Shown here one piece after another: positions 47,332-57,865 of a stretch of 64,000 nucleotides of DNA. The translations under genes and the position numbers were made by a program. This DNA is from Marinomonas aquiplantarum (lineage in GTDB: Bacteria > Pseudomonadota > Gammaproteobacteria > Pseudomonadales > Marinomonadaceae). The notes under the pieces were generated by a model, which did no database searches, was not told where the DNA came from, and saw only the letters and a list, made by a program, of their open reading frames with translations. The stretch lies in the NCBI RefSeq assembly GCF_003314975.1, contig NZ_QNRF01000005.1, forward strand, positions 1-64,000, given 5' to 3'. How positions within the stretch are numbered: the stretch's first letter is position 1; each line of letters starts with the position of its first letter.

Positions 47332-48369
47332 TTATCCTTTGTGTTGATGATGTTTGACCAAATCAATGGCCTCTAATAATACATTAACGTTTGCGTCGGC
47401 TTTATGACCATTTTCGGAAAGATAGCGACGGAATTGTTTACCGCCTGGCTCACCTTGGAAAATGCCAAGAATATGACGCGTTAAATGAAGCAGTCGTTCC
47501 CCTCGTGCGAGTTGTTCCTCAACATAAGGCACAAATGCTTCCAATGCTTGATATCTGTCTGTTACCAATGGCGTATTGCCATAGATGGCTTGGTCTACTT
47601 GACTTAATAACCAAGGGTTGTGATATGCCTCACGGCCAATCATCACACCATCTACTTTTAGCAGATGTGTTTGGCATTCCTCTATGGTTTTAATGCCACC
47701 GTTAATGATGATTTCAAGGTCTGGAAAATCTTCTTTTAGCTGATGAACATAATGGTACTTAAGAGGCGGAATCTCTCGATTTTCCTTAGGACTCAAGCCC
47801 TGTAAAATGGCATTACGTGCATGCACAATAAAGGTGTTTACTCCGGTGGTAGCCACATCGCCCACAAAATCACGTACCACGCTGTAATCTTGTTGTTCAT
47901 CCAAACCGATACGATGCTTAATAGTCACCGGAATGTTGCAAGCGTCCTGCATTGCCTTCATAGCGTCTTTAACTTTGTCAGGATGCGCCATCAAACAAGC
48001 GCCAATCAAACTGTTTTGTACGCGGTCACTCGGACAACCCACGTTCAAATTGACCTCGTCGTAGCCAAACTTTTCCGCCATGGCTGCGCATTGACCTAAA
48101 TCTTTAGCGTTGGAGCCGCCTAATTGTAATGCAATAGGGTGTTCACAATCGTCATAACGTAAAAAACGTTCTGGATTATTGCCTTTTAATAAAGCCCCAG
48201 ATGTCACCATCTCAGTATAAAGCAAAGTGTTCTTCGTCAAGGTGCGCGCAAACACCCGATAATCAGACGTAGTCCAATCCATCATGGGTGCGACGGAGAA
48301 TCGTCTATCCACTGTATCCTTTGTATTGTCTGGCTTAGAGGCTATAATGTCAGTGTTTTCGTTTAGCAT
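47332..48369 (-). CDS. dusA: tRNA-dihydrouridine synthase A
   Basis: This 345-residue flavoenzyme has the Dus signature [19 protein letters not shown] at residues 22-40, catalytic Cys112 in [10 protein letters not shown], and FMN contacts NGGIKT and [10 protein letters not shown]. It reduces U20 in the tRNA D-loop. The 5' end of dusA is a known attachment site for integrases, and an integrase gene lies divergently 157 bases away. The first ~20 residues ([20 protein letters not shown]) may have been reshaped by the insertion. Confidence 0.93.
48250..48300 (-). other. Presumed attachment site (attL) in the 5' end of dusA
   Basis: The codons for [15 protein letters not shown] lie here and correspond to the conserved stretch used by dusA-associated integrases. 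The exact crossover cannot be seen because I find no second copy inside the window. Confidence 0.4.
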
Positions 48370-48526
48370 TTATATGGTCAATTTGGGTCAAAAATAGGCG
48401 TTTTAAGGAGTCTGGTGCTAACAAAGTGCTAAAAATATTTTTTTAGCACTCGCCTGTACCAAGCCTTCTAAAATACCTTAAATAATTATGGTTCCCAATT
48501 ATGTCATAAAATTACAGGATTGTGAT

Positions 48527-49669
48527 ATGGCTAGTTTCAGGAAGAGAAAAAAGAAAGATGGAACAGACGTAGTTTATGCCCAAATTCGGATCAAAAAGCA
48601 GGGCAATGTTGTATTCAGTGAAAGTGAGGCATTTGAAGGTCGTAATGCTCAGCGTGATGCGGAATTGTGGGCTAATGTTCGTGAATCTGAAATCAAGCGT
48701 AGGTTAGATAGCGGCAAATCACTCGTTCAGTTATCCGTTGCTGAAGGTATGTCACGTTATTTGGCTGAGCATGAGAATGCGCCAAACCCTCTTGGTAAAA
48801 CCAAACACAACACCATGCTTTTAATGAGTAAAGAAGCGATGTTGGGGGAGGTGGCTTTGTCTGAAATAAAAGCCGCTGACTTATTGCTCTATTTTCGAAA
48901 GCGTTATCATGAAGATGGTGCGGCCGCGGCAACGGTTATGCAGGATGCGAGTTATATTCGTGTTTTAGCCAAATATGCCCGCGTAGCTTGGTCTATCCCC
49001 ATTGATTTGCAAGAAATTGATGATGCTGTTGACCTTGGCGGTAAGATGGGAGTGATTGACCGATCGACTCAGCGCACACGACGACCAACTCTGGATGAGG
49101 TTAAGGCAATTTGTTCTTACAGTGGAAGAACCAAGACTGGCCGTGGCTGCAATACTAAGCATGTCACACCATTGGAAGATGTTGTGTTGTTCGCTATTTT
49201 TTCGACAAGGCGTTTAGGTGAGATTTGCCGTATGGAGTGGAATGATGTCGATTTTGAGGAAGGGACTGTCGAAATCAAAGACATGAAGCACCCAAGAAAA
49301 AAGAAGGGCAATAATGTTATTTTGCATTTGCCAGGTAGGGCGCTCGAAATCATTAAACGACAACCAAGAGCGGAAAATGAGCCTCGCATTTTTCCCTATC
49401 ATGAAAGAACCATTGGTACGGCCTATCAGCGCGCGTGTAAGTTTGCCGATATTGAGGATTTAACTTTTCATGATCTGCGCCATGAAGGGGTTAGTCACTT
49501 GTTTGAGCTAGGTTACTCCATTCCTCAAGTGAGTATGATTTCCGGCCATCGGTCTTGGGCGAACCTTTCTCGGTATACTCATTTAGGCAAGTTGGACAAG
49601 TTTGATAAATATGATGGTTTTGAGTTTGTGAATGGCCTCGGAGAGGCCGGCTTGGTTAAGCCGACATAG
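48527..49669 (+). CDS. Tyrosine integrase next to dusA
   Basis: This 380-residue tyrosine recombinase has a basic N-terminal arm-binding region (MASFRKRKKKDGTDVVYAQIRI), a core-binding domain, and catalytic residues in FSTRRLGEICRMEW (Arg), FHDLRHEGVSHL (His-x-x-Arg) and SGHRSWANLSRYTHL (His and Tyr). I chose the ATG at 48527, preceded by ACAGGA. Its place directly outside dusA, divergent from it, fits the dusA-associated integrase group. Its last 14 bases overlap prtN tail-to-tail. Confidence 0.9.
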   Translation: MASFRKRKKKDGTDVVYAQIRIKKQGNVVFSESEAFEGRNAQRDAELWANVRESEIKRRLDSGKSLVQLSVAEGMSRYLAEHENAPNPLGKTKHNTMLLMSKEAMLGEVALSEIKAADLLLYFRKRYHEDGAAAATVMQDASYIRVLAKYARVAWSIPIDLQEIDDAVDLGGKMGVIDRSTQRTRRPTLDEVKAICSYSGRTKTGRGCNTKHVTPLEDVVLFAIFSTRRLGEICRMEWNDVDFEEGTVEIKDMKHPRKKKGNNVILHLPGRALEIIKRQPRAENEPRIFPYHERTIGTAYQRACKFADIEDLTFHDLRHEGVSHLFELGYSIPQVSMISGHRSWANLSRYTHLGKLDKFDKYDGFEFVNGLGEAGLVKPT

Positions 49670-50018
49670 CCTCTCGTTGTACGCGTCGGCCCCGTCTTAC
49701 AGGGCCTTCTTTCGTCAGGTTTTGTTTTTTGCTTTGTTTTGCCGCAATAGGCGCTTTACCACTTAGCAGTAAGGCGCGTTGTTTGGCTTCTTCACGCGCT
49801 TTGTCCAATGCCTCGGCCAAATCTTCTAGATGAATGATGTAGGGGCTCTTCTGTGATTTACTCATTCGAAAGGCTGGTATGGGAAGCTCTCCAATATTAG
49901 CCGCTTTATTCGCCTCATGTAGCGTTTTGAAGTTAGTGTAATGCAATGCTTCTTCAAGCTTTACGGCCGCTCGTCCTTCAAATTCAGCCATGAGTAAAAA
50001 TAGTGTTTTTGAGCTCAT
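49656..50018 (-). CDS. prtN: PrtN-like pyocin activator protein
   Basis: This 120-residue protein matches PrtN: KTLFLLMAEFEGRAAVKLEEA, ANIGELPIPAFRMSKSQKSPYIIHLEDLAEALDKAREEA. PrtN activates pyocin genes in Pseudomonas and related proteins occur in many prophages. I chose the ATG at 50018 because GGAGAAGGAAC precedes it. It is the last gene of the leftward csrA operon. No P-box or tailocin genes are visible in the window. Confidence 0.8.
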   Translation of the reverse strand: MSSKTLFLLMAEFEGRAAVKLEEALHYTNFKTLHEANKAANIGELPIPAFRMSKSQKSPYIIHLEDLAEALDKAREEAKQRALLLSGKAPIAAKQSKKQNLTKEGPVRRGRRVQREAMSA

Positions 50019-50029
50019 GTTCCTTCTCC

Positions 50030-50455
50030 CTAGTTTAATAGACGTGGTGGAACGTCTATCCACGTGCTTTTGAATTTTCCCGCATGCTTTGGGTCTTCCT
50101 GACGAACGCATTGTTTATAGCCAATCTGGTTAGCCCCAAATTTACGTGCGATTGCGCTGAATTCATTACAGCGCTTTGGGTCGCCATAAAGCGGTGATAT
50201 CTGCTTTGGCGTAAGGTTGGTCATGTAATGGCTGACCAATTCATTCAACGCATTTTGATAGGGCTCTTCTGGAATCTCACCAATATTGGCAAGGATTTTT
50301 ACCGCAATATCAACCTTGCTTAATCGTCTGTCGAACTTCCATTTTGAGACCATTTCTTTTGCTGCTTTGGCTCCCGCTTTTTCAATGTTAGCGAGGCGTG
50401 TTTTGGCTTGTTTTTCTGCCAGTTCTTTTGATACTCCAAATACGGCAAAGCTCAT
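50030..50455 (-). CDS. Phage-type protein of unknown function
   Basis: This 141-residue protein is rich in Lys and Ala, with KELAEKQAKTRLANIEKAGAKAAKEMVSKWKFDRRLSKVDIAVKILANIG and a C-terminal RCNEFSAIARKFGANQIGYKQCVRQ block. The start has a strong site, GGAGGATGAT. It lies between the coiled-coil gene and prtN in one operon. I do not recognise it. Confidence 0.65.
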   Translation of the reverse strand: MSFAVFGVSKELAEKQAKTRLANIEKAGAKAAKEMVSKWKFDRRLSKVDIAVKILANIGEIPEEPYQNALNELVSHYMTNLTPKQISPLYGDPKRCNEFSAIARKFGANQIGYKQCVRQEDPKHAGKFKSTWIDVPPRLLN

Positions 50456-50467
50456 ATCATCCTCCTT

Positions 50468-50932
50468 TTACGCAACCTGTTGCGCTGTTTTGATGACGGA
50501 CATGGCTAATTCATAGCCGTGGTAACCCTTGGCGAACACGCTTCTTTGTTGGGTGTCTAGCTCGCCATGTTGGTTGTAAGGGTTGCGCCAGTATGTTGGG
50601 TCGGCATATTGAGCCAAGATGGCTAAGGCTTTGCTGTTATCAATGTCTGCATGTTCATTAAGAAGCTGACTGATGCGAGCATTGGCAGAGTTCAGTTGCT
50701 GCTCAAGTTGGTTAATGGTGCGTTGCAGGTTCTCGTTATGCAGTTTCACTCGATAATTTTCTGCAGCGGCACGAGCTAGGTTATCCCGCATGCTGTCAGA
50801 CATAGAGGCGATTGTGCATAGACTCTCGTAGCCGTTAATGGCTTCGATAAGCTGTCGAACGGTGATGGGATGACTGTTTTGGTCGTGGCCTGCTATTAGG
50901 TCTTCTTGCCAGTTATATTGATTAGTATTCAT
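50468..50932 (-). CDS. Coiled-coil phage-type protein of unknown function
   Basis: This 154-residue protein has a central coiled coil (NYRVKLHNENLQRTINQLEQQLNSANARISQLLNEH) between an N-terminal VRQLIEAINGYESL and a C-terminal aromatic part (YADPTYWRNPYNQHG, FAKGYHGYELAM). The ATG is preceded by AAGGAGATACC. It follows the csrA-like gene in the leftward operon. The function is unknown. Confidence 0.65.
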   Translation of the reverse strand: MNTNQYNWQEDLIAGHDQNSHPITVRQLIEAINGYESLCTIASMSDSMRDNLARAAAENYRVKLHNENLQRTINQLEQQLNSANARISQLLNEHADIDNSKALAILAQYADPTYWRNPYNQHGELDTQQRSVFAKGYHGYELAMSVIKTAQQVA

Positions 50933-50985: not shown

Positions 50986-51294
50986 TTAGTGTGCCAAGCT
51001 GGCGATGGCGCCGGATTGTTCGGCTTTGATTTTTAGGTAAATTTCTTCGCGATGAACGGCAATATCACGCGGTGCGGTGATACCAAGACGAACTTGCATG
51101 CCTTTTACGCTCAGAATTTCCACGCTGATGTTGTCGCCAATGTTGATGGCTTGCCCAACTTTGCGAGTTTGGGTGAGAAGGGTGGGGGTTGCAGTACGAA
51201 TGCGGATTAGATTGCTTTTGATGCCAGAAACCGTCACTTCGATTTCATCGCCAATCATGATGGTTTCGCCAATGCGTCGAGTCAGAATTAACAT
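50986..51294 (-). CDS. csrA: CsrA-like RNA-binding protein with internal duplication
   Basis: This 102-residue protein holds one and a half CsrA units. Residues 1-38 are a CsrA beta1-beta4 segment ([35 protein letters not shown]). Residues 39-102 are a complete CsrA-like unit ([47 protein letters not shown]). T5-R6-R7-x-G9 aligns with T43-R44-K45-x-G47, an offset of 38. Chromosomal CsrA is about 60 residues. Only the second unit has the beta5 VHREE RNA-contact residues (Arg82). It heads a leftward operon from its own TTGACA promoter. Confidence 0.85.
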
Positions 51295-51304
51295 AATTTC
51301 CTAT

Positions 51305-51375
51305 CCTTTTGGTTGTATTGATAGGATTAAATTACAACCATAAGTGGTTTTGTGTCAACACCTAAAAGTTGTAAA
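51305..51375 (-). promoter_or_regulatory. csrA operon promoter with CI/Cro-like sites
   Basis: Read leftward, TTTACAACTTTTA (51375-51363), -35 TTGACA (51358-51353), an 18-bp spacer and TAATTT (51334-51329) are followed by ATACAACCAAAAGG (51318-51305). The same blocks occur in the same order at the cro promoter. Confidence 0.65.
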
Positions 51376-51444: not shown

Positions 51445-52092
51445 TTAAAATTTTACTTTTGCTTCGGTGACAACACCGACTATGCGGCAGTTTCCATTGA
51501 TTTCAATTGATCGATATTCTGGATTCAGTGGTTTCAAATACTTATGGCCAGCATCAATAACAAGTTTTTTGAAAGTGACCTCATCAGTCCCTTCTAGCTT
51601 AGCTATAACTAGGCTGCCATTATCAGCTGCAATATTGGGATCGACTAGTATCAAATGACCTTCGGGGATGCTTTGGCCAGAGCTTGAAGTCATGCTATCG
51701 CCAACCACTTTTAACCAGAAAGCGTTTTCACTGGCCGAGCTAGGCGATTCTTGCCATTCGATATCATCACCTAAATCTCTGTAGTCTACAGCTTCGCCCC
51801 ATGAACCTGCTTGCACGTGGCTTATAACAGGGAGCTTCTTAGAAGGAAAGCCAAATGGAGCAGATGTCACATTACTGGACGACTCGTCAGAGTTAGCGAC
51901 AATTCCAAACTGAAGCCATTCTGGTGAGCACTCTAATGCATTTGATAATTCCAAAAGCTTTCTGGGGTTGTGTGTTCTCCCATCTTCAATTTTCTGAAGA
52001 GACTGTTGGCTAATGCCCACCACTTTTGCAAGTTCTGCTTGCGTAAGTTTTAAGTGTGTTCGCTGTTGTTTTACTCGTTCTGCAATTGTCAT
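51445..52092 (-). CDS. CI-type phage repressor with S24 peptidase domain
   Basis: This 215-residue protein has an N-terminal XRE HTH (KLTQAELAKVVGISQQSLQKIEDGRTHNPRKL) and a C-terminal S24 domain. The cleavage site is Ala95-Gly96 (VQAGSWGE), the catalytic Ser133 lies in GDSMTS and Lys165 in VIAKLEG. It should be inactivated by RecA-stimulated self-cleavage after DNA damage. It is divergent from the Cro-like gene across a 115-base operator region. Confidence 0.92.
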   Translation of the reverse strand: MTIAERVKQQRTHLKLTQAELAKVVGISQQSLQKIEDGRTHNPRKLLELSNALECSPEWLQFGIVANSDESSSNVTSAPFGFPSKKLPVISHVQAGSWGEAVDYRDLGDDIEWQESPSSASENAFWLKVVGDSMTSSSGQSIPEGHLILVDPNIAADNGSLVIAKLEGTDEVTFKKLVIDAGHKYLKPLNPEYRSIEINGNCRIVGVVTEAKVKF

Positions 52093-52134: not shown

Positions 52135-52195
52135 TTTACAACTTTTAATGTATTTGACAAACAATAATATGTTGTTATTAAATACAACCAAAAGG
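52135..52195 (+). promoter_or_regulatory. cro promoter with putative operators
   Basis: TTTACAACTTTTA (52135-52147), -35 TTGACA (52154-52159), a 16-bp spacer, -10 TATTAA (52176-52181) and ATACAACCAAAAGG (52182-52195). The TACAAC-bearing blocks are candidate CI/Cro sites because they recur at the csrA promoter. Confidence 0.6.
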
Positions 52196-52207: not shown

Positions 52208-52408
52208 ATGTCTGCTATACAAAAAGCTGTAAATATTATTGGGACTCAAACAAAAGTCGCTCGATTAATTGGTGTTAAGCAAGCCCATGTTTGGAATTGG
52301 TTGCGTCTACACAAACGTGCTCCTGCTAAATACATTCGCCGCATATCAGAAGCGACAGAGGGAAAAGTGAGTGTTGATGAGCTTCTTCAAGACCATGAAT
52401 CACTCTAA
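52208..52408 (+). CDS. Cro/YdaS-like regulator
   Basis: This 66-residue protein is a single HTH: MSAIQKAVNIIGTQTKVARLIGVKQAHVWNWLRLHKRAPAKYIRRISEATEGKVSVDEL. It matches the YdaS/Cro group. I chose the ATG at 52208 because GGAGGATAT precedes it. It is the first gene of the rightward early operon, opposed to the CI-type repressor. Confidence 0.85.
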   Translation: MSAIQKAVNIIGTQTKVARLIGVKQAHVWNWLRLHKRAPAKYIRRISEATEGKVSVDELLQDHESL

Positions 52409-53747: not shown

Positions 53748-54488
53748 ATGAGTATGGAATTAATGGTTAAGGCCATGAAAACCAAGGTAGGTAACCCACT
53801 TCGCAAACTTGTGCTTATTAAACTCGCTGATAATGCAAATGATCAGGGTGAGTGTTGGCCAAGTTATCAGTACATCGCAGATCAATGTGAAATTGGTAAG
53901 CGAACCGTGATCAGTCACATTGATTCATTAATAGAGTCTGGCTTGCTAACGAAAACCATTCGAAAAGGCGCCAAAGGAAATTCATCTAATGTTTATGTAC
54001 TGAATCTTGACGCCAAGCCAGTAAACAATGGGGGTGCAAATGCTGCACCCCCTAGTGCAAATGTCGCACCCCCTAGTGCAAATGCTGCACCCCCTAGTGC
54101 AAATGCTGCACCAGGGGGGGGTGCAAATGCTGCACCCAGAACCAGTCACTTTCTTGAACCAGTCAAAGAACCAGTCAACTCTTTGGTCGTTCCGCCCAAA
54201 CGCAAAAAATCAAAACGGGCTTCTGGCGTTCCCGATGAATTTCTCGTTGACCAGCGGATGCTCGATTGGCTAACCGAAAACCAAATCATCACCGACTGGC
54301 GAACCGAGACCAATAATTTCTTGGACCATCACCGAGCCAAGGGCTCAACCATGGCGGACTGGGTGGCCGCATGGCGAACGTGGATGCGCAATTCCATGAA
54401 GTTCGCCACAGGGCGACCGGCACCGCCGCACTCAGCCAAACAGCAAGTTCACGACAGTTTGTCGAATATCCACGATACCGACTGGTAG
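53748..54488 (+). CDS. O-like phage replication protein with embedded iterons
   Basis: This 246-residue protein has an N-terminal winged-helix (HTH_36) domain (LRKLVLIKLADNANDQGECWPSYQYIADQCEIGKRTVISHIDSLIESGLL). A repeat linker SANAAPP (about residues 92-130) follows. The C-terminal DnaT-like part (FLVDQRMLDWLTENQIITDWRTETNNFLDHHRAKGSTMADWVAAWRTWMRN) probably contacts the host helicase machinery. The linker DNA carries five palindromic iterons, as the lambda O gene carries the lambda origin. The ATG at 53748 follows AGGTTAGCTGCC. Confidence 0.82.
   Translation: MSMELMVKAMKTKVGNPLRKLVLIKLADNANDQGECWPSYQYIADQCEIGKRTVISHIDSLIESGLLTKTIRKGAKGNSSNVYVLNLDAKPVNNGGANAAPPSANVAPPSANAAPPSANAAPGGGANAAPRTSHFLEPVKEPVNSLVVPPKRKKSKRASGVPDEFLVDQRMLDWLTENQIITDWRTETNNFLDHHRAKGSTMADWVAAWRTWMRNSMKFATGRPAPPHSAKQQVHDSLSNIHDTDW
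54034..54177 (+). repeat. Iterons and direct repeats, probable replication origin
   Basis: Units start at 54034, 54055, 54076, 54097 and 54121: GTGCAAATGCTGCAC, with the second carrying one swap (GTC for GCT). Spacing is 21, 21, 21 and 24 bp. Each holds the palindrome arms GTGCA/TGCAC. Three AACCAGTCA direct repeats follow at 54140, 54157 and 54169. Confidence 0.75.
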
Positions 54489-55792: not shown

Positions 55793-56323
55793 ATGCGCTG
55801 GCTAGACCGGGACAAACCAAACACACTGGGCGCGCTAGGATGGCGGATCATCAATGACCAAATTACCTACCTGACCGCCAGCTCAGCTGATGCAGGTTGG
55901 ACAGGCGTGGGCAACACAGGGCGCATTTGTGAATCTCTACAAACGGGCGTGGTGCCAAGCTTTCAGGGCGGTGGGGAAAGCAACGCCGCCATGATGCGAC
56001 AAATCCGCATGCTGTCAGCCAAAGACAAAGGCTTTGCTTGGTTGTTTGCTGACTTATCCCGCATGCAAAAGCTTTGCTTATTCGCTGCGGTGTTGGCCGA
56101 AGGACGCAAAACCACACAAGGCAAACCGCTAAGCAACGCGCGCATTGCCGCTAGCTTGCCCGTCTTTTCTGCCGAGCTGCGCATTGGCCCAGCACACAAA
56201 AGCATGAGTGAAAAGACCTTCGCCAACAACGTAGCAGAAGGGCGCAAACGCTTTATCAAACGGCTTGAAAAAGAGCTGATCAGCCTAGTAAGGAACAAGC
56301 AAACCACCAAGGCCATTGCATGA
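55793..56323 (+). CDS. Integrase-coupled protein of unknown function
   Basis: This 176-residue protein has RWLDRDKPNTLGALGWRIINDQITYLT, LSAKDKGFAWLFADLSRMQKLCLFAAVLAEGRKT and a basic C terminus (NVAEGRKRFIKRLEKELISL). It overlaps the following integrase by 4 bases (ATGA), so the two are translated together. A small recombination accessory is possible but not shown. Confidence 0.6.
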   Translation: MRWLDRDKPNTLGALGWRIINDQITYLTASSADAGWTGVGNTGRICESLQTGVVPSFQGGGESNAAMMRQIRMLSAKDKGFAWLFADLSRMQKLCLFAAVLAEGRKTTQGKPLSNARIAASLPVFSAELRIGPAHKSMSEKTFANNVAEGRKRFIKRLEKELISLVRNKQTTKAIA

Positions 56324-57480
56324 CCAAACGCTCTGCCAAAACCATCACAGATGCTTCCATCCGAGCCGCCCTAAAGAGCAACAAAACCTACCTATACGAC
56401 ACCCGCCGCGTGGAGTTTTACATCAACGCCGCGCGCACCGGTGGCACTTTTTACGACGTGGTCTACAAAGGCAAAAAGCGCCAGCGTACCAAGCTCGCCA
56501 AGTGGCCAGCGGTGACCGCGAAAACACTCTTTGCTGAACTTCCTGCCATACGTGCCAATGCGTTGGCTGATCGGCAAGCCAGCCTCACCGTTGCCACCTA
56601 CCAAACCGGCGGCGAAGTCTTACTCTGGTTCATGCAGCACATAGACGCCGACAAAACCTACTCAGAGTCCTACGTGGCCACCGCGTCCAGCTACATTGGT
56701 AACCACTTACTCGCCGTACTTCATGACTACCGCATTAGCGACATCAACAAAGCCTTGCTGTACAAACAGCTCTACATGCCCATGCAAAAGGACTACGCGC
56801 TGTCTACCATAAAAGGTGTGCTGGGCACCTTAAAAACCGCCTTTACCCGCGCCAGCGAACTTGGCCTGATCAGCACCAACCCCACCAAACACATCACTTT
56901 CAGCAGTTTTACCACCACCCAGCCAGACAGCAAGCCCGGTAAACTCAAACCGCACGACTTGCCCAACCTAGTGGCCGCCATAAACCGACAGCCTCACATG
57001 AAGCGCGTTTTCTTCATGACCCAATTACTCCACGGCACTCGCATAGGCGAAACCTGCCTCGCCAAATGGTCGCATTTTTCCTCCAACATGTTGGAATGGT
57101 ACCTGCCCGCCGAGAACACCAAAAACGGCAACGAACACCGCTTGCCCATCACCCAACAGGCCATGGACCTCATCGCCAGTTTGCCCAAGCAAAGCGACTA
57201 TGTATTCAGCGCCAACGGCACCAGCCCAATCGCCAAGCGCACCGTAGAACGCTGGTACCAAAGCCTGAGCGACGACGTGGGCATTAAGTTCACCAGTCAC
57301 GACATACGCAAACTCGCCCGCGACTGCTGGCAAGACATGGGCATCGACTGGGTAATAGGGGAAATGCTACTCAACCACGAACGGGACGGACTGGACAAAC
57401 GCTACATGCACACCCATTCCAGAGAACAGATGCGCAAAGCGTTGGGGGAGTGGGGGAGGAATATGATTTTAAGAGAATAG
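56320..57480 (+). CDS. Second tyrosine integrase
   Basis: This 386-residue recombinase has an N-terminal arm domain (YLYDTRRVEFYINAARTGGTFYDVVYKGKKRQRTKLAKWPAV), a core-binding domain, and catalytic residues in LLHGTRIGETCLAKW (Arg), FTSHDIRKLARDCW (His-x-x-Arg), MLLNHERDGLD (His) and KRYMHTHS (Tyr). All expected residues are present. It is GC-rich with many GCC and ACC codons, unlike the dusA-side integrase. An AT-rich repeat array follows. Confidence 0.92.
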   Translation: MTKRSAKTITDASIRAALKSNKTYLYDTRRVEFYINAARTGGTFYDVVYKGKKRQRTKLAKWPAVTAKTLFAELPAIRANALADRQASLTVATYQTGGEVLLWFMQHIDADKTYSESYVATASSYIGNHLLAVLHDYRISDINKALLYKQLYMPMQKDYALSTIKGVLGTLKTAFTRASELGLISTNPTKHITFSSFTTTQPDSKPGKLKPHDLPNLVAAINRQPHMKRVFFMTQLLHGTRIGETCLAKWSHFSSNMLEWYLPAENTKNGNEHRLPITQQAMDLIASLPKQSDYVFSANGTSPIAKRTVERWYQSLSDDVGIKFTSHDIRKLARDCWQDMGIDWVIGEMLLNHERDGLDKRYMHTHSREQMRKALGEWGRNMILRE

Positions 57481-57670
57481 ATTAATGTTAAAGCTAATAA
57501 ATTAATAGATTAATGGTCTTATTATTAAGGCTATTAAGTTAATATTTTAGTGTGTTGATGGATTAATATTAAAGCTAATAAGTTAATATTTTAATGGTCT
57601 TGTTATTAAGGCTATTAAATTAATAGATTAATATTAAAGCTAATAGCTTAATAGATTGATGTTAAATGAA
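57481..57670. repeat. AT-rich repeat array after the second integrase
   Basis: The block ATTAATRTTAAAGCTAATA occurs at 57481, 57562 and 57627, and TTAATGGTCTTRTTATTAAGG at 57510 and 57591, giving an 81-bp period for the first two copies. The 57671-57847 stretch is AT-rich without a recognisable gene. The array could hold integrase arm sites or an attachment site. Confidence 0.7.
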
Positions 57671-57865
57671 GTGAAGTTGGTTTTTTAATATTATTAATTA
57701 AAATAATGTATTGAAATCAATGGCTTGTGTTTTATTTTTTTGTTAAATGGTTAATTTTGTGTAAGATTTAATTAAAAGTTTTTTTAATATCATTGCGGAT
57801 TTTTTGTTTTGAATGTATTATTTTAGAAATAATATTTTGGATTTATATTGTGTGAGGTCAGAGGA

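Follow-up and report, generated by a model that had tools for sequence, protein, structure and literature searches.

A csrA gene on the minus strand of Marinomonas aquiplantarum contig NZ_QNRF01000005.1, at positions 50986-51294 of its first 64,000 nucleotides (the whole stretch of DNA analysed here, hereafter the window), encodes a protein in which an incomplete CsrA unit is joined to a complete one within a single chain of 102 residues plus stop, with no internal stop on translation. We consider it probable that this protein is a single-chain pseudo-dimer which keeps one of the two RNA sites of CsrA, is monomeric and insulated from the host CsrA, and is controlled by the CI-type repressor of the prophage that carries it. 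The chances seem to us evenly balanced that it stands for a class of mobile-element CsrA proteins in prophages, phage and plasmids that do not homodimerise and would be single-chain, monovalent and orthogonal to the host pool, with release by CI in the Marinomonas prophages.

Two CsrA units in one chain

The whole protein matches the CsrA profile PF02599 in two stretches (E 3.9e-32, 110.4 bits, Pfam gathering cut-off 27), the outcome that a preliminary description of this DNA had predicted for such a search. The layout given there also holds, with residues 1-38 (51181-51294, minus strand) comprising beta1-beta4 and residues 39-102 (50989-51180, minus strand) forming a whole CsrA unit of beta1-beta5 and a helix. 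As separate genomic matches, unit 1 (51190-51294) covers positions 1-35 of the 53 in the profile with an E-value of 4.0e-11 and 45.1 bits, and unit 2 (51025-51168) covers positions 5-52 with an E-value of 3.7e-20 and 74 bits. Each unit alone exceeds the curated cut-off and a repeat by chance was therefore rejected. Unit 1 stops past beta4 and has neither beta5 nor the helix. Between the units 13 of 38 residues and 61 of 114 nucleotides are identical, a level of divergence which suggests an old relationship rather than a fresh duplication.

The roles assigned here to the RNA-site residues of CsrA are in part general background and go beyond those given in PMC3791407. The full set of these residues (L4, T5 and R6 in beta1; V, R, E and E in beta5) is present only once in the protein, divided between beta1 of unit 1 (MLILTRR, 51274-51294, minus strand) and the beta5 region of unit 2 (IAVHREE, residues 78-84, 51043-51063, minus strand), each of which would supply half of the predicted intact site. 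In an alignment of 13 two-unit sequences, described below, invariance is confined to columns M1, L2, I3, L4, T5, R6, I14, A74, P75, V80, R82, E83 and E84. All six positions of the CsrA hexamer MLILTR are thus kept by beta1 of unit 1 in 13/13 rows, compared with three of six by beta1 of unit 2 in the window and in M. rhodophyticola and none of six in Xanthomonas and in genome G381. Although degenerate in sequence, this segment of unit 2 (residues 40-45, 51160-51177, minus strand) is a strand in the AlphaFold2 (AF2) model, and residues 39-47 hold no invariant column across the 13 rows. As both strands occupy the same kind of position in the fold, the difference between them appears to go beyond what folding alone would explain.

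Conservation and selection

The layout is common to six distinct genes, those of the window, Marinomonas sp. TW1 (genome G036), genome G032, M. rhodophyticola KJ51-3 and the IMG/VR contigs L083 and L084, with the TW1 homologue being full-length and 91% identical to the window protein. In each of the 15 pairs of these genes, third codon positions account for more of the changes than either of the other two positions. The nonsynonymous rate (dN) lies below the synonymous rate (dS) in 15/15 pairs for unit 1 and in 14/14 defined pairs for unit 2, one dS being undefined, and dN/dS is at most about 0.36 in both units; dS in the more distant pairs is close to saturation. On these codon comparisons purifying selection is acting on both units, and the low dN of unit 1 points to its being a working part of the protein.

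Predicted fold

The AF2 model of the two-unit chain, built from a five-row alignment, has nine strands and a C-terminal helix with a predicted local distance difference test score (pLDDT) of 85.3 and a predicted template modelling score (pTM) of 0.71; across the five models pLDDT was 85.3, 83.7, 80.1, 77.9 and 37.2. The predicted strands of unit 1 are 2-7, 11-14, 18-26 and 29-35, those of unit 2 include 40-45, 49-53, 56-64 and 80-82, and block means of confidence are 81-91 for unit 1 and 85-93 for unit 2 up to residue 90. As a control, one lone CsrA (L007) modelled from an eight-row alignment reached a pLDDT of 72.6 and a pTM of 0.50. Its strands were limited to 11-14, 18-26 and 29-35, residues 2-5 formed a helix, and there was no beta1 or beta5 strand. 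In these models beta1 and beta5 thus appear to need a partner, one which the two-unit chain contains within itself.

Residues 38-95 of the model align with the CsrA protomer 2bti_A over 58 residues at a root-mean-square deviation (rmsd) of 1.3 Å. RsmN (4kji) aligns for 51 of its 64 residues across residues 1-86 at an rmsd of 2.3, and this alignment, of which the ranges alone are known, is what would be expected if beta1-beta2 of RsmN fall on unit 1 and beta3-beta5 on unit 2. CsrA chains lead a fold search of the PDB (E 0.006-0.05). In BFVD, ten models of viral proteins without a name or characterisation, 81-160 residues long, match the fold at E up to 0.001 with 14-29% identity, and so does one named 'Carbon storage regulator', so that the fold class could be larger.

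A putative single-site, single-chain CsrA

RsmA has a pair of five-strand sheets, one ordered beta5A-2B-3B-4B-1A and the other its mate, in which beta1 and beta5 are swapped between the chains, and the two RNA sites of the CsrA dimer cooperate with avidity on tandem GGA motifs (PMC3791407). Each RNA site of an ordinary CsrA dimer draws on beta1 from one chain and on beta5 from the other. Unit 1, with beta1-beta4, would take the place of the missing partner chain, and its beta4 would pass via a short turn directly into beta1 of unit 2, its pairing strand in an ordinary dimer. As beta4 of one chain lies beside beta1 of the other in RsmA, these two strands are the ones joined by the fusion. Reading the sequence against the known dimer, the complete RNA site would take its beta1 from unit 1 and its beta5 from unit 2, and the second site would be lost, since unit 1 has no beta5 and the beta1 in unit 2 is degenerate. 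The protein may thus act as a monomer that binds single GGA motifs near ribosome-binding sites and blocks ribosomes without bridging two sites. A closed chain of this kind would not be expected to exchange with the host CsrA proteins, since satisfied swap strands would disfavour mixing. The protein would be made early in prophage induction, once the CI repressor lets go.

If this is true, a natural one-site single-chain CsrA would show what one site can do without recourse to engineered heterodimers. It would also show how a translational regulator belonging to a phage or plasmid can operate free of host cross-talk, and would offer structural studies a single-chain scaffold that is ready to use.

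Upstream region and probable control by CI

Upstream of csrA lies an operator-like region (51305-51373, minus strand) with TACAACTTTTA at 51363-51373, ATACAACCAAAAGG at 51305-51318 and, by eye, TTGACA at 51353-51358. A motif scan found matching operator-like motifs ahead of the Cro-like gene (52137-52195, plus strand), and within the 64 kb window exact copies of TACAACTTTTA and ATACAACCAAAAGG occur only at the cro start and at csrA. Sites resembling TTAAGTTTTCCTAA (up to two mismatches) were found only at cI/cro and csrA in all four loci of one repressor type, each covering 11.5-20 kb, and none were found in the window or in L084, the repressors of which are 80% identical to one another. The csrA upstream region aligned with the cro region of its own prophage better than all 300 shuffles in five of the six prophages, with scores against the shuffle maximum of 60 vs 40 in the window, 63 vs 47 in TW1, 55 vs 48 in M. 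rhodophyticola, 56 vs 50 in L083 and 53 vs 49 in G032; the shuffles moved two-base blocks and are a crude control. The csrA region of L084 scored 48 with the cro region of the window, against a shuffle maximum of 39. The first operator pattern that we tried did no better than chance. Since csrA shares its motifs with cI/cro and the type of motif tracks the type of repressor, csrA is probably CI-repressed, and its upstream sequence makes it a probable member of the CI regulon that would be expressed upon induction.

The start ATG is identical in 6/6 prophage genes and AGGAYAGGA is kept just upstream of it, despite two types of DNA above. In the window this ribosome-binding leader reads AGGATAGGA (51299-51307, minus strand), and in all six prophages two GGA motifs lie over the ribosome-binding site, so that self-control is possible. 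GGA motifs are common in leaders generally. A leader hairpin was unsupported in the four leaders folded (z -1.0, -0.2, -2.7 and +1.3).

Alternative readings

The preliminary description had offered several effects on CsrA, and of these the built-in half-dimer is upheld by the Pfam and AF2 results. Its proposal of an altered RNA spacing fared less well, as the missing partner appears to be provided from within the chain, and the likely outcome is a self-contained pseudo-dimer with one RNA site. A related reading is that unit 2 dimerises normally, with itself or with host CsrA, and that unit 1 is an appendage altering RNA spacing or recruiting CsrA into divalent or higher-order forms. Unit 2 is indeed a complete CsrA by profile, its beta1 in Marinomonas keeps TRK, and in the work described in PMC9928087 the plasmid protein RsmQ gave signals of heterodimer formation with the Rsm proteins of the host. 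However, outside the Marinomonas group unit 2 has a degenerate beta1, whereas that of unit 1 is invariant, and AF2 confidence is similar for the two units, and we therefore regard dimerisation through unit 2 as unlikely. Less likely still is a dominant-negative role, in which the protein mixes with host CsrA to give defective dimers. The prophage location and three further csrA-like genes in the host genome, all on other contigs, would suit such a poison, but a conserved and fully canonical composite RNA site would be unexpected for one, and we found no support for it in an analysis that modelled single chains. That the repeat is a sequencing or assembly duplication, or a gene in decay, is barely credible and was rejected, as the units are only 13/38 identical and the layout recurs in six distinct genes that belong to Marinomonas or lie close to it, taken from separate records and with dN below dS, and in divergent relatives too. 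The first 38 residues, whose absence from homologues would have pointed to such an artefact, are found in 13 two-unit sequences, and the internal duplication noted in the preliminary description is real.

Some results weigh against a CI-controlled single-chain pseudo-dimer. In L084 the csrA upstream region scored 32 with its own cro region, below the shuffle maximum of 36, and a promoter scan flagged no site upstream of csrA. Four unrelated beta proteins also outscore CsrA in the list of structural matches that includes 2bti_A and RsmN.

Comparison with known CsrA-family proteins

By profile and by site residues the two-unit protein belongs to the CsrA family, yet at 102 residues and two units it departs from the length of a single-unit CsrA (about 65-75 residues) and probably from the dimeric state too. 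It shares fold elements and the RNA-site residues of beta1 and beta5 with the homodimers CsrA, RsmA and RsmE, which consist of two chains of about 65-75 residues with two sites (PMC7366521), whereas here there is one chain with probably one site. In RsmN/RsmF of Pseudomonas aeruginosa (4kji, 4k59), a rearranged CsrA, one chain likewise provides the beta1 and beta5 contacts to one RNA; it has a helix inserted between beta2 and beta3 and still forms a dimer with two sites (PMC3791407), whereas in the window protein the place of the partner is taken by a second, partial unit. The inserted helix of the RsmN type is absent from the AF2 model, with none between strands 11-14 and 18-26 or between 49-53 and 56-64.

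Long phage regulators of phrog_5527 (123 positions) also contain a CsrA-like part, but have one N-terminal CsrA stretch followed by a C-terminal part matching phrog_9165. An example is the 123-residue CsrA of Pseudomonas aeruginosa phage vB_Pae_BR228a (L044, 1552-1920), whose C-terminal part matches phrog_9165 (70 positions). The window protein was rejected as an ordinary long phage CsrA with a tail of this type, a second CsrA stretch being present, and a PHROGs scan of five Marinomonas-type rows gave no further named family. Plasmid RsmQ and phage RsmM are likewise CsrA homologues on mobile elements; RsmQ differs in that it is modelled as a homodimer (PMC9928087), and PMC7366521 refers to RsmM as a phage allele. 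We found no published description of a two-unit CsrA layout in searches of the open-licence PMC literature on tandem, fused, duplicated or mobile-element CsrA, and the words 'tandem' and 'fusion' are absent from the main text of PMC7366521.

Distant relatives and extent of the survey

The 13 two-unit sequences fall into five groups, namely six of Marinomonas type, four from Xanthomonas/Stenotrophomonas, and one each from Pseudomonas phage vsMR (a record flagged UNVERIFIED) and genomes G381 and G185, the last three with two PF02599 stretches each. Stretches in such far relatives were counted at E up to 0.1. A tblastn search of plasmids yielded the Xanthomonas and Stenotrophomonas proteins (such as WP_041854964.1), annotated as 'carbon storage regulator' with no mention of two units, which are 113-116 residues long from the MLIL start and have two stretches in all three that were scanned. 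They share the two-unit layout and differ in a longer link, a degenerate beta1 in unit 2 and a C-terminal tail. Omitted from the 13 rows were L099 (99.1% to L098) and L101 (100%), the window's own gene (L004, L005, L006, L012, L082 and L116) and repeats (L013 and L077, equal to L080; L076, equal to L014; L096, equal to L075). On Xanthomonas citri plasmid plB (L146, 3001-3634) the two-unit csrA directly adjoins an ordinary single csrA. In the G185 gene (L049, 996-1352) the joining strand, PKEVRVVTIELGG, is part beta5-like and part beta1-like, and could perhaps be a trace of the origin of the fusion.

Rows of the survey were mostly judged by the matched range and some were read individually. Within the genus the two-unit gene occurs in three of 48 genomes (G000, G036 and G032), and one further row, G015 C84, matched unit 1 only, with a stop. 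Among the matches listed from 390 genomes of the order, 242 of them matching, two-unit genes are in G000, G036, G381 and G185; G267 looked full-length and was rejected, being one CsrA unit with a reading frame upstream of it. In the class (369 genomes, 269 matching) the window's own gene was the sole two-unit one among the matches listed, leaving out the wide-range G118 and G464, and in the family of G381 the count at E up to 1e-15 was one of 44. Query A3 gave two loci out of 137 candidates in genome contigs and three out of 176 in viral contigs, one of the three being the window's own. Among viral contigs, query P0001 gave six loci (the window's own and five single-unit), the G381 query 11, all single-unit, the Xanthomonas query 13, none two-unit and one cut by a contig end, and the vsMR query none. 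The phage search (E up to 0.01) returned 86 records, vsMR alone covering at least 80% of the query. Of 204 plasmid records obtained, 21 spanned 80% or more of the query, some of these being single units aligned with a gap; the frame of a Spongiibacter match has a stop within a single unit. The Xanthomonas query returned 27 plasmid records, 14 of which (13 Xanthomonas and one Stenotrophomonas) cover at least 80%, and six of these 14 were fetched for reading.

Prophage setting

The prophage location given in the preliminary description was borne out by comparing the window with five related prophages (TW1, G032, L081, L083 and L084). The IMG/VR prophage contig L006 is the same DNA as the window, identical over the stretch it covers. 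Gene order in the window runs from a CI-type repressor with helix-turn-helix (HTH) and peptidase S24 domains by Pfam (51445-52092, minus strand) through csrA, a 154-residue gene (50468-50932, minus strand) and a 141-residue gene (50030-50455, minus strand), both without assigned function, and a PrtN/excisionase-like gene (49656-50111, minus strand; PF11112, phrog_1300) to a tyrosine integrase (48488-49669, plus strand; PF00589). Beyond the repressor lies the Cro/YdaS-like gene (52208-52408, plus strand), its start placed by eye, which matches PF15943 and, below cut-off, P22_Cro.

The order repressor, csrA, 154-residue gene is kept in 6/6 prophages, with additional DNA separating the repressor from csrA in TW1 and G032. 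The 154-residue gene directly adjoins csrA in four prophages, and in the other two, L081 and L083, the distance is about 1.1 kb; its protein, for which neither Pfam nor PHROGs gave a convincing family, is a possible partner of the two-unit CsrA. The 141-residue gene is matched in TW1, L083 and L084 and unmatched in G032 and L081, and the excisionase-like gene is matched in the window, TW1, G032 and L083. The pairing of the integrase with the gene beside it on the chromosome recurs in the window, TW1 and G032; in the window this neighbouring gene (47332-48369) resembles, by eye, a tRNA-dihydrouridine synthase.

Elsewhere in the prophage, an HTH gene (53748-54488) contains five 21-nucleotide repeats at 54030-54137 that encode a NAAPPSA-type repeat. 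A second tyrosine recombinase lies inside the prophage at 56320-57480, matched in all five relatives compared, and is followed by AT-rich repeats at 57477-57695.
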